Assembly: GCF_947654275.1 (NCBI RefSeq)
Contig: NZ_CANTJS010000009.1
Location: forward strand, 1-64,000
Direction of reading: 5' to 3'
Source of the DNA: an uncultured Oscillibacter sp.
GTDB lineage: Bacteria > Bacillota > Clostridia > Oscillospirales > Oscillospiraceae
Length of the DNA: 64,000 nt
In this document: positions 48,671 through 62,778 of the stretch, one piece after another
Layout: the number at the start of each line of letters is the position of its first letter
Position numbering within the stretch: the stretch's first letter is position 1
Program-made: the position numbers and the translations under genes
Notes under the pieces: model-generated
Seen by the model: the letters and a program-made list of their open reading frames with translations, nothing else
Told to the model about the DNA's origin: nothing
Databases searched by the model: none

Positions 48671-48735
48671 GCATGAATTCGACCAAATCACCCCTTTGAC
48701 AGAGGAGGGTTCTTTGTGTGCTTTCTCCAAAATCA

Positions 48736-48860
48736 GAACCTGTATTCATAGCCGGGGGGAGCTGCATGGGCGAGGATTTTTCCTGTTGCAAGGGAAATTG
48801 ACGCAGTATGGCAGGAAAAAGACCGTTCAGACAGCGTTCAGCGGTTGTGAACGCAGGTTC
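48736..48860 (-). mobile_element. MITE-like element, copy B (125 bp)
   Basis: Starts GAACCTGTATTCA and ends TGAACGCAGGTTC, so 11 of 13 terminal bases are inverted repeats. Flanked by direct TCA (48733-48735 and 48861-48863). Its interior matches copy A (61918-62078) in reverse orientation, e.g. GACGCAGTATGGCAGGAAAA here and its counterpart there, but lacks about 36 bp. It has no coding capacity. TNA duplications are a feature of the IS1031 group of IS5-family elements, so it is probably a non-autonomous relative. Confidence 0.8.
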
Positions 48861-48871
48861 TCAGGCAAGCC

Positions 48872-48901
48872 GTCATACTTTCATGGGGACGGGCATAGAT
48901 T
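48872..48901 (+). promoter_or_regulatory. Sigma-E-type promoter of spoIVA
   Basis: GTCATACT (48872-48879), 14 nt, CATAGATT (48894-48901). This is 7 of 8 on the -35 consensus GKCATATT and close on the -10. It lies 11 bp after the end of MITE copy B. Confidence 0.75.
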
Positions 48902-48938: not shown

Positions 48939-50414
48939 ATGAACACGACCATCTATCAGAATATCGCCACCCGCACCGCGGGAGATATCTACATCGGCGT
49001 GGTGGGCCCGGTGCGGACCGGCAAGTCCACCTTTATCAAGCGCTTTATGGAAACCCAGGTGATTCCCAACATTGAAAATGTGTACCGCAAGGAGCGGGCC
49101 AGGGATGAACTGCCCCAGAGCGGTTCCGGCCGGACCATCATGACGGCGGAGCCCAAATTTGTGCCGGAGGAAGCGGCTCAGGTTCAGCTGGAGGGCGGCG
49201 CGTCCTTCTCCGTGCGGCTGATTGACTGCGTGGGCTACATGGTCCGGGGAGCCATCGGCCAGTATGAGGACGACACGCCCCGGATGGTGACGACGCCCTG
49301 GTACGACCACGAAATTCCCATGACGGAGGCGGCGGAAATCGGCACCCGGAAGGTGATTTCCGAGCACTCCACCATCGGCATCGTCATCACCACCGACGGA
49401 ACGGTGGCCGATATTCCCCGAGAGGACTATCTGGAGGCGGAGGAGCGGGTCATCCGGGAGCTCCAGGAGCTGGGGAAGCCCTTCATCGTCCTCTTGAACT
49501 CCGCCGATCCCAGGTCCGACCGGGCCGCCGCCATCGCCAGAGACATCGCCTCACGCTATGAGGTGAACTGCGTTCCGGTGAACTGCCTGGAGCTGGGGGA
49601 GGAGGACGTGGCGGACATCCTCAAGGCTGTCCTCTACGAATTTCCCATGCAGGAGCTGGACCTGTTCCTGCCTCCCTGGGTGGACGCTCTGCCGTCGGCG
49701 CACCCCATTAAGGCAAACCTTTACGAGGCGGTCCGGCAGAGCACCTCGCAGCTCCAGCATATCCGGGAGGTGGACGGCGTCATCGCCGCCCTGGGAAGCT
49801 GTGAGAATATCAGTGAGGCGGCCATCACGGCCATTGACCTGGGCACCGGCGTGGCCGCCGCCCGGCTGGGTCTGCCCCGTGAACTGTTTTACCGGACGCT
49901 GTCGGAGCAGTCCGGATTTGAGGTGGGGGACGACGGCGACCTCATGAGCCTGCTGACCCGTCTGGCGGCGGTGAAAGCGGAATATGACAAGGTGGCCGGG
50001 GCGCTGAAGGACGTGAAGGAAACGGGGTATGGCATCGTGGTCCCCGGCATTGACGAGCTGACCCTGGAGGAGCCGGAAATCATGAAGCAGGGAGGCCGCT
50101 ACGGCGTGAGGCTGAAGGCCAGCGCTCCCAGCATCCATATGATTCGGGCGGACATCGAGACCGCCGTCTCGCCCATCGTGGGCAACGAGAAGCAGTCCGA
50201 GGATATGGTGAACTACCTGCTTCAGGAGTTCGAGGGAGACACGGGGAAAATCTGGCAATCCAATATTTTTGGCCGCAGCTTCCACGAGCTGGTCAGCGAC
50301 GACCTTCAGGGCAAGCTGAAGCGGATGCCGGACGACGCCCGGAAGAAGCTTCAGGAAACCCTGACCCGCATCATCAACGAGGGCAGCGGGGGGCTGATCT
50401 GCATTATCCTGTGA
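48939..50414 (+). CDS. spoIVA: Stage IV sporulation protein A (coat basement ATPase)
   Basis: 491 aa, the family length. N-terminal TRAFAC-like NTPase domain with Walker A GPVRTGKST (23-31), then middle and C-terminal polymerisation domains ending in GGLICIIL. SpoIVA hydrolyses ATP to polymerise on the forespore surface, anchored by SpoVM, and carries the coat. ATG at 48939; a weak AAAAAGGA site precedes it. Monocistronic. Confidence 0.97.
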   Translation: MNTTIYQNIATRTAGDIYIGVVGPVRTGKSTFIKRFMETQVIPNIENVYRKERARDELPQSGSGRTIMTAEPKFVPEEAAQVQLEGGASFSVRLIDCVGYMVRGAIGQYEDDTPRMVTTPWYDHEIPMTEAAEIGTRKVISEHSTIGIVITTDGTVADIPREDYLEAEERVIRELQELGKPFIVLLNSADPRSDRAAAIARDIASRYEVNCVPVNCLELGEEDVADILKAVLYEFPMQELDLFLPPWVDALPSAHPIKANLYEAVRQSTSQLQHIREVDGVIAALGSCENISEAAITAIDLGTGVAAARLGLPRELFYRTLSEQSGFEVGDDGDLMSLLTRLAAVKAEYDKVAGALKDVKETGYGIVVPGIDELTLEEPEIMKQGGRYGVRLKASAPSIHMIRADIETAVSPIVGNEKQSEDMVNYLLQEFEGDTGKIWQSNIFGRSFHELVSDDLQGKLKRMPDDARKKLQETLTRIINEGSGGLICIIL

Positions 50415-61259: not shown

Positions 61260-61308
61260 GAACTGAAGAGGAAGTCCGGCTTTGCCGGGCGGAGAAAGAG
61301 GAGTTGCG

Positions 61309-61917
61309 ATGTTTTACTATCTGGAGGGCACGGTGGCGGAGCTGCTGCCCTATCTGGCGGTGATTGACTGCGGCGGCGTGGGCTACGCCTGCAAAACCAC
61401 CAACAACACCCTGTCGGCCCTGAAAAAGGGCCAGAGGGGAAAGCTCTACACCTATCTGAACGTAGGCGACGGCATTTTTGAGCTGTACGGCTTCGCCACG
61501 CAGAGAGAGCTGAACAGCTTCCGGCTGCTGATTGGCGTTTCCGGCGTGGGCCCCAAGGCGGCGCTGGCTATTTTGTCCGTGGGAACGCCGGAGACCCTGG
61601 CCATGGCCATTGTCACCGGCGATGAGAAGAGCCTGACGGCGGCCCCGGGCATCGGCAAGAAAATTGCCCAGCGTATCATTCTGGAGCTGAAGGACAAAAT
61701 GGCTAAGGAGACCGGCGGCAGTCTGGATTTCTCCGGCGGCAAGGGCGGACCCGCTCCCGCCATGTTCGCCAGCAAGGCCGCCGAGGCCGCCCAGGCCCTG
61801 GCGGTGCTGGGATATACCAGCCAGGAGGTCTCGGCAGCCCTGAAGGGGCTGGATGTGGAACAGCTGCCCCTGGAGGAAATTGTCCGGCAGGGCTTGAAGC
61901 GGATGGCAAAGTTGTAA
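61309..61917 (+). CDS. ruvA: Holliday junction DNA helicase subunit RuvA
   Basis: 202 aa. N-terminal OB-fold (YYLEGTVAELLPYLAVIDCGG), helix-hairpin-helix motifs (LIGVSGVGPKAALAIL, LTAAPGIGKKIAQRI) and C-terminal domain III for RuvB contact. ATG at 61309 after GAGGAG. The TAA stop is also the left target duplication of the MITE that follows. Confidence 0.96.
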   Translation: MFYYLEGTVAELLPYLAVIDCGGVGYACKTTNNTLSALKKGQRGKLYTYLNVGDGIFELYGFATQRELNSFRLLIGVSGVGPKAALAILSVGTPETLAMAIVTGDEKSLTAAPGIGKKIAQRIILELKDKMAKETGGSLDFSGGKGGPAPAMFASKAAEAAQALAVLGYTSQEVSAALKGLDVEQLPLEEIVRQGLKRMAKL

Positions 61918-62078
61918 GAACCTGTATTCACAATCGCTGCACGCCGTTTGGCCGGTCTTTTTCCCGTCATACTGCGTCGATTTTCCTTGCCATACGTCAG
62001 TATGGCTGCGAAAAATCTCCTTGCCTGACGGCAAAAATCCTCACCCATCCGGCATCCCCCGGCTATGAATACAGGTTC
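61918..62078 (+). mobile_element. MITE-like element, copy A (161 bp)
   Basis: Perfect terminal inverted repeats GAACCTGTATTCA/TGAATACAGGTTC (61918-61930/62066-62078), flanked by direct TAA (61915-61917 and 62079-62081). Non-coding. Interior shares long blocks with copy B (48736-48860), inverted relative to it. A GCAAGG...GCAAGG repeat inside (as read on the minus strand) brackets most of the segment missing from copy B. IS5/IS1031-type relationship is inferred from GA-start ends and the TNA duplication. Confidence 0.85.
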
Positions 62079-62109
62079 TAAGCAGAAACAGGGAAGGGAG
62101 CATCGAGAA

Positions 62110-62778
62110 ATGGACCCATTGGACGTATTTCATGAAACCCCCAAACAGAGCGCCGGCCCGTCCGGCGGCGAGGAGATCTCCGCCCCCGGCTGGGACGCCA
62201 TTACGGAGGCGTTCCAAACGCTCTATCCTGGCCAGGAGCATCCCCTTCACTTCGGGGTCCTGATTCCCTGGCAGCTGGGAGGGCCAAACCCTTTACAGGG
62301 CGTCAGCGCCTACGACGGCGGGGATTTCTTCCACCTTGTTACCTACGGGCTGACGGACCTCTATGAGAAAGAGGGAACGGACCCGGACTACAGCGGCTAC
62401 GGCTATGAATTTACCATGAAGCTCCGCAAGGCGGGGCTGGAGGACGTTCATGCCGAGCTGCACTGTGCCGCCGGAATTTTGCAGGACCTGGCGAAGCTGA
62501 CCTTTGAGAAGGGCGAGCAGTTCTATCCCAATGAGTATATCTACACCGGCCAGACTACCGGGATGGACGTGAGGCAGGTCTCGAAGCTCACCGGCTTCAT
62601 CACCGCATGGGATGAGGCGGGGACCATCGAGACCCCCAACGGGAAGGTGGACTTCGTGCAGCTGATCGGCGCGACAGACCCGGAGCTGCGGGCCGTTATG
62701 GACGGAACGCTCCGGGTGGCGGAGCTGGCGGAACGGCTGGGCGGCTGGACAGACTACACAAGAGACAGCACGGTTTGA
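62110..62778 (+). CDS. Suppressor of fused (SUFU) domain protein
   Basis: 222 aa. GWDAITEAFQTLYPGQEHPLHFG, FFHLVTYGLTDLYEKE and SGYGYEFTMKLRKAG (as separate blocks) are bacterial SUFU signatures. These proteins are thought to act as immunity proteins in polymorphic-toxin systems. ATG at 62110 after AAGGGAG, only 29 nt after the MITE. First of three genes placed between ruvA and ruvB. Confidence 0.88.
   Translation: MDPLDVFHETPKQSAGPSGGEEISAPGWDAITEAFQTLYPGQEHPLHFGVLIPWQLGGPNPLQGVSAYDGGDFFHLVTYGLTDLYEKEGTDPDYSGYGYEFTMKLRKAGLEDVHAELHCAAGILQDLAKLTFEKGEQFYPNEYIYTGQTTGMDVRQVSKLTGFITAWDEAGTIETPNGKVDFVQLIGATDPELRAVMDGTLRVAELAERLGGWTDYTRDSTV

Follow-up and report, generated by a model that had tools for sequence, protein, structure and literature searches.

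MITEs, small non-autonomous transposable elements, are usually viewed as transposon ends that flank dispensable filler. Of the known systems closest to the one considered here, ERIC and Correia/NEMIS each have one end type per family and reside in other hosts. The parts of the literature available to us describe these repeats as 100-200 bp long with a long stem-loop, a likeness to the family analyzed below, and report that transcripts are affected via RNase III or RNase E (PMC10969869, PMC2229807); they differ from it in having TA at the termini (PMC2229807). The bcr1-bcr18 repeats of the Bacillus cereus group are likewise small, partly MITE-like (bcr1-bcr3) and partly structured (bcr10 and bcr18, with conserved secondary structures), and about half of them occur in transcripts; in the accessible part of that description they belong to one species group, whereas here one core is found order-wide in elements with many end types (PMC3446304). 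Finally, MITEAba12 (90 copies, 40% with duplications) has been attributed to an insertion sequence (IS) with matching ends and thus resembles the present case as a MITE tied to an IS by its ends, but its duplications are 9-bp, and a structured core is absent from its description in the portion of the source at hand (PMC6382973).

In the window, that is, the whole stretch of 64,000 nucleotides of Oscillibacter DNA analyzed here, two copies of such an element are present, one upstream of spoIVA and the other immediately after ruvA. The principal features are as follows.

48733-48735, unstranded: left target-site duplication TCA, corresponding to a single TCA at the empty site of relative G048
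48736-48860, plus strand (the canonical, hairpin strand): spoIVA-side MITE copy, 125 bp, internally deleted; of the elements compared, copy L026 is the closest, with 92.8% identity over 125 bp
48736-48748, plus strand: left terminal inverted repeat GAACCTGTATTCA of the 125-bp copy
48767-48829, plus strand: core remainder in the 125-bp copy, covariance-model match of 38.0 bits, E 2.4e-10
48848-48860, minus strand: right terminal inverted repeat GAACCTGCGTTCA of the 125-bp copy, with two changes
48861-48863, unstranded: right target-site duplication TCA, a repeat of the left triplet
48873-48901, plus strand: sigma-E-like promoter of spoIVA (TCATACT, 14 nt, CATAGATT), 9 bp past the right TCA duplication
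48939-50414, plus strand: spoIVA (PF09547, E 5e-117)
61306-61917, plus strand: ruvA (RuvA_N, HHH_5 and RuvA_C domains)
61915-61917, unstranded: target-site duplication TAA, which doubles as the ruvA stop codon
61918-62078, minus strand: full-length MITE copy, 161 bp, with two perfect 13-bp terminal repeats and TAA/TAA duplications
61949-62047, minus strand: complete structured core of the 161-bp copy, 101.2 bits, E 2.8e-32
62079-62081, unstranded: target-site duplication TAA

The segment 48736-48860 is an internally deleted insertion of a MITE. An earlier note on this DNA, made from the sequence alone, had described 48733-48863 as a deleted 125-bp copy that is oriented opposite to the other copy, has a TCA duplication of its own and is changed at two positions of one terminal repeat. 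All of this holds: the interval is the 125-bp element together with its duplications, GAACCTGCGTTCA differs from GAACCTGTATTCA at two positions, and the block common to the two copies, GACGCAGTATG, lies on opposite strands (two occurrences in the window against 0.01 expected from shuffles). The 125-bp copy is 36 bp shorter than the 161-bp one and lacks the middle of the hairpin described below; its deletion junction was found at two of 374 loci (L003 and L144), both of which are that very copy. We interpret it, with a probability of about 0.8, as a deleted MITE insertion, moved by an IS5-type transposase, that carries a hairpin of about 100 nt, conserved mainly on one strand, which is common to elements of many end types and would act as RNA. 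The gene after ruvA (62110-62778) encodes a SUFU-domain protein (PF05076).

The genome-wide copy count, which the earlier note had suggested as a check, yielded 16 occurrences of GACGCAGTATG against one for a reversed-pattern control, and the 13-bp terminal repeat occurs 106 times with at most one mismatch, against zero in the control. A BLAST search of the genome with a 165-bp query gave at least 44 matches (40 of 87 candidates scored). Two terminal repeats 100-240 bp apart were detected at 53 of the 65 own-genome loci examined, although the weaker of these pairs have up to 5 mismatches and a few could be coincidental; loci with no pair within these limits (12 of the 65 own loci and 5 of the 87 loci of relatives) were left out. 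The commonest lengths among the 53 own copies are 161 bp (21 copies) and 167 bp (13 copies). Identical TNA duplications flank 32 of the 53, whereas in the other 21 the triplets differ, with TNA on both sides in 9 and on one side in 12; the 82 copies from relatives comprise 47 with identical TNA, one with another identical triplet and 34 with differing triplets. The target around TNA is AT-rich on both flanks. BLAST matches were found in 32 of 86 genomes of the genus and in 26 of 200 genomes of the family sample, the copy numbers in both being lower bounds. The family is short and non-coding, with 13-bp terminal inverted repeats, a TNA duplication, many copies, and presence or absence among relatives, as expected of a MITE. 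A search of plasmids with the 131-bp copy (element plus duplications) yielded no match, and a phage search with the 165-bp copy yielded one partial match (MT835573.1:653-768, a phage record from human faeces). In addition, a putative viral contig (L288:4522-4604) ends within a copy of the element, the core of which scores 74.7 bits. In another genome (L061:2287-2613, G049), a variant of 327 bp is located downstream of an IS5-type transposase gene; its 13-bp repeats are perfect, and its hairpin contains additional sequence.

Both window copies are missing at the orthologous sites of the close relative G048. Upstream of spoIVA, the G048 sequence aligns straight through a single TCA (96.9% identity over 192 bases), and at ruvA the alignment (94.5% over 237 bases, with one 1-base gap near the junction) crosses a single TAA and reaches into the following gene. 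A family-wide common flank is lacking among the 53 own copies, whose flanks give only seven alignments between five pairs. The empty sites with single triplets, the unshared flanks and the identical TNA duplications (32 of 53 and 47 of 82) show independent insertion, as the earlier note had proposed for these two copies. Segmental duplication instead of transposition draws on nothing beyond the identity of the repeats; with empty sites that retain a single target triplet and no common flank block, it is refuted for both window copies, and we consider it practically excluded.

With respect to the enzyme that moves the element, the earlier note had postulated an IS5-type transposase encoded outside the window. 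An intact IS5-family element was indeed identified, in another genome of the genus (L115, in G012) rather than in the same genome: it is 825 bp long, contains a 256-aa transposase ORF that matches NF033580 (IS5 family), PF13340 and PF01609, is flanked by TTA/TTA, and has the ends GAATCTGTATTCA / GAAGCTGTATTCA, near-identical to those of the MITE, with one mismatch per end. A related 823-bp element in G075, of the same genus, has a TGA duplication and a transposase split into two ORFs; these two are the elements with similar ends, at one or two mismatches per end, among 30 loci tested. The MITE therefore shares with this IS5 family (NF033580) the GAACCTGTATTCA-like terminal repeats and a TNA-type duplication (TTA and TGA in the two elements of the genus) and differs in that the IS encodes the 256-aa transposase. 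Among 80 loci in named records that encode relatives of this transposase, 32 have a repeat pair at IS length, and 18 of these have identical flanking triplets, in a ranking of the pairs that favoured identical triplets. The exact GAACCTGTATTCA sequence at both ends was found in five distant IS (L290, L331, L349, L350 and L364), the flanking triplets of which are not identical. Most IS elements of the close group continue with CACAA after the left end and with CATAAGCG after the right end; the MITE ends run on as CACAA and CATA. In its own draft genome, which is 93% complete, a matching IS was not found: the relatives of the transposase there are only about 30% identical, and the DDE_Tnp_1 and DUF4096 searches gave three matches each, all of the loci taken from them having at least two end mismatches to the MITE repeat. 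The two elements of the genus and the more distant IS with such ends provide good support for the inference that an IS5-family DDE transposase, encoded by elements of approximately 824 bp with nearly the same ends, mobilises the MITE in trans; the lack of a matching IS in the own genome and the unequal triplets of the five distant IS count against it. A truncated core match (36.5 bits) at a contig end of a Moraxella metagenome-assembled genome (MAG; L322:4780-4870), which also contains a related IS5 element, could reflect either transfer or misbinning.

The interior of the element folds preferentially on one strand. The full-length family consensus folds with -96 kcal/mol on one strand and -54 kcal/mol on the other, and this sense strand is the more stable in all 53 own copies and in 81 of the 82 from relatives, although these copies share ancestry. 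In the 161-bp copy, the covariance model scores the antisense of the core at just 15.4 bits, against 101.2 bits for the sense. We aligned 32 of 52 cores, which similarity searches had yielded from elements with several end types, using MAFFT, on sequence alone (near-duplicates and decayed copies were dropped by choice). RNAalifold, run on the alignment on which the changes were then counted, predicted 32 pairs, of which 26 show compensatory changes on both sides. Paired cells amount to 92.9%, compared with 74.4% in shuffles, none of 500 shuffles being as high on any of five measures; when the partner was slid by 1-3 columns, pairing fell to 34-48%. A second alignment, comprising 34 of 113 model matches from places unused in the model (near-duplicates and decayed copies again dropped), produced the same fold when it was predicted afresh, with 33 of 37 pairs changed on both sides and 91.8% paired against 65.1% in shuffles (for covariation, 0 of 500 shuffles were as high), although these matches were found with a fold-rewarding model and so lean towards the fold, and prediction and counting again used a single alignment. 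The consensus energies of sense and antisense are -31.7 and -8.8 kcal/mol in the first alignment and -45.4 and -23.1 kcal/mol in the second, and the sense strand gives the more stable fold for all 32 and all 34 core sequences, respectively. While the core helices vary by compensatory substitution, the internal loops CAAG and CGCAG are nearly constant. That the core folds as an RNA under selection is, on these alignments, well supported by covariation. Accordingly, of the reading in the earlier note, the deleted mobile insertion stands, but its treatment of the interior as filler does not, the interior being the conserved structured part (26 of 32 and 33 of 37 covarying pairs). Six loci (L378, L437, L438, L455, L463 and L472) have an extra CAAGAG / CCGCAG pair immediately beyond the modelled core, which suggests that the hairpin extends further there with the same loop motif.

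The same fold might alternatively belong to an ordinary MITE, the hairpin being a decaying palindrome that is kept complementary by DNA processes, such as cruciform or template-switch repair of one arm by the other, with no selection at the RNA level. Long stem-loops are common in MITEs, as far as the accessible part of one description goes (PMC2229807), and single-copy changes in the window's family are near even between G-U and A-C (44:31, 49:54 and 52:41 at three clustering thresholds). Conserved mismatches and G-U pairs, however, would not survive arm repair, whereas the internal loops are nearly constant, and the ratio of G-U to A-C is 90:19 and 92:13 in the sense structure of the two alignments but 14:16 and 35:46 in the structure predicted for the antisense as a control, so that the G-U excess belongs to one strand. 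Moreover, the CAAGG and CGCAG loops are each present as two direct copies instead of reverse complements, so they are not remains of a palindrome, and folding is weaker on the opposite strand. We therefore regard the palindrome as an improbable account of the core. Within the window's family, from the alignment of which 9 of the 135 elements were left out as falling outside 156-170 bp, changes of Watson-Crick pairs to G-U and to A-C in the outer stem number 33:14 on internal branches and 156:135 on terminal ones (p 0.04), and those in the whole hairpin 46:28 and 204:190 (p 0.13), both with a strand-neutral definition of pairs; pairs of the sense fold gave 47:22 on internal branches. The RNA signal inside this single MITE family is weak, so the RNA claim rests on the cross-family alignments. 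Further purine-purine mismatch sites in the window's family are located at positions 20-21, 30-31 and 40-41, approximately ten apart, and one could guess that these spaced mismatches form a protein-binding face.

Searches for a described RNA of this kind were negative. None of the Rfam 15 families reached its gathering score in the window, and relaxed searches (E up to 1) of 61900-62100 and seven loci returned only chance-level matches far below the thresholds. The candidates rejected in this way were RT-17 (E 0.22), mir-725 (E 0.037 and 0.4) and sR23 (E 0.17), the last three matches being outside the core. The core accordingly matches no description in Rfam 15, where tested, or in the literature searched.

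A survey with the covariance model (E 0.001; at most ten candidates per genome were scored, with stricter filters) detected the core in 158 of the 394 genomes sampled from the order and in 77 of 168 genera, a count that, like the second alignment, leans towards the fold that the model rewards. Family-level BLAST revealed genomes that match only the interior of the element, and at 20 chosen places from the genus and family searches the same interior is found in elements with other, or undefinable, ends. We then scanned 100 loci, hand-picked and largely the best-scoring matches, which contained 113 matches, 110 of them distinct and 101 with enough flanking sequence (the flanks of the other 9 being too short); in a scan of 81 other loci, the named carriers of the core include the genome of an Anaerotruncus sp. 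and a MAG of Intestinimonas. Terminal repeats located 25-34 nt from the core, with matches at 12 or more of 16 bases, were present in 60 of the 101 distinct copies, compared with one of 1010 shuffled controls, and clustering of the 60 gave 16-23 sequence types, depending on the threshold. It is from these copies that a constant middle with variable ends is apparent. A fixed pattern search of viral contigs for the core yielded nothing.

These observations suggest that what unites these small parasites is the hairpin and not their ends. The finding of a MITE is in itself ordinary; the widespread, conserved RNA-like structure of its core is not. Judging from the sequences compared, the core lacks a matching Rfam family and occurs in MITEs whose ends are of many kinds, such that conservation, with strong covariation, is seen in the supposed filler and variation in the ends. 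Under our preferred reading of the element as an IS5-moved MITE with an RNA hairpin, the hairpin would be the constant, inherited part of a large group of parasites, around which the ends, and so presumably the transposases, would have changed repeatedly; it would act as RNA once the element is transcribed, and the conserved loops would most likely bind a protein of the host or of the element. Some end types are similar to one another, so that the ends may instead have diverged slowly and not been swapped. A more far-reaching proposal, which we advance tentatively and to which we assign slightly less than even odds, is that one conserved RNA, and not the transposon ends, is the hereditary unit, which has moved under many transposases by exchange of terminal repeats and persists because the folded RNA aids its own spread, for example, through binding of a host protein by the loops. 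If confirmed, this structured RNA, for which no Rfam family was found, would be present in the above 158 sampled genomes and would account for many interspersed repeats of the order; it also makes testable whether bacterial MITEs have a function of their own.

Terminal repeats were absent, in the same test, from 41 of the 101 copies, 24 of which are in loci with two back-to-back cores in opposite orientation. In 11 loci (L410, L412, L414, L421, L431, L432, L465, L466, L468, L470 and L485), opposite core pairs without terminal repeats in this test are separated by 10-20 nt, an arrangement that resembles REP pairs. The similarity to REPIN/BIME, the oppositely oriented core pairs in some genomes, is offset by the size of the units, which are about 100 nt here and not 20-40, and by the terminal repeats of the 60 copies. 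REP hairpins have conserved mismatches. This shared property and the opposite pairs without terminal repeats in several genomes would fit a hairpin that is read as single-stranded DNA by an HUH-type enzyme (REP/RAYT or IS200-like), as in REPINs. Against such a role, the ends of the window's family are of the DDE type, its duplications are TNA and its counterpart belongs to the IS5 family, and the sense-strand G-U excess favours RNA, making recognition by an HUH-type enzyme about as unlikely as the palindrome.

The placement of the copies among genes bears on yet another possibility, namely, that the core has been domesticated as a regulatory RNA of the host, for example, a terminator or mRNA stabiliser, and is kept for the host. 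Of 135 copies, 38 are between convergent genes and 11 between divergent ones, which agrees with such a role but is also as expected if insertions into promoters are lost. Under a simple ORF model, 36 of the 135 are located exactly on a stop codon, 28 in antisense and 8 in sense (p 0.001); this set was obtained with custom ORF scoring and includes two TAG cases without intact TNA. In a looser test on 91 order-wide loci, the orientations are 45 and 54, with no bias, and the two empty sites in G048 together with the 236 of 394 genomes that lack a match at the threshold used also speak against a host function, which we rate as slightly less probable still than reading by an HUH-type enzyme. The orientation bias at stops could be caused by target preference: in the 98 copies off stops, left flanks are more AT-rich than right ones (p 0.004). 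Because of the ORF scoring, the lack of an order-wide repeat of the bias and this asymmetry of the flanks, we draw no mechanism from it. A TNA duplication at a stop codon can preserve the stop, and at ruvA the target was the stop codon itself, which the TAA duplication keeps intact.

The 125-bp copy retains the outer helices of the core and the CAAGG / GACGCAG internal loop, with the distal part deleted; having lost the distal half of the hairpin, it is probably inert as RNA. The ATG of spoIVA (48939) is 78 bp after the element, and the sequence at 48873-48901 is one that we take to be a sigma-E-like promoter by the full sigma-E consensus. A similar sequence is present in the 13 relatives, of 29, that aligned in the right orientation, which were the only ones read, and the insertion leaves this core promoter of spoIVA intact. 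The accessible part of a study of Clostridioides difficile gives ATA in the sigma-E -35 element and reports a sigma-E promoter upstream of spoIVA (PMC3789822). Beside the insertion and upstream of the spoIVA promoter, positions 48864-48869 read GGCAAG, compared with GACGGG in all 13 aligned relatives, a difference of three substitutions.
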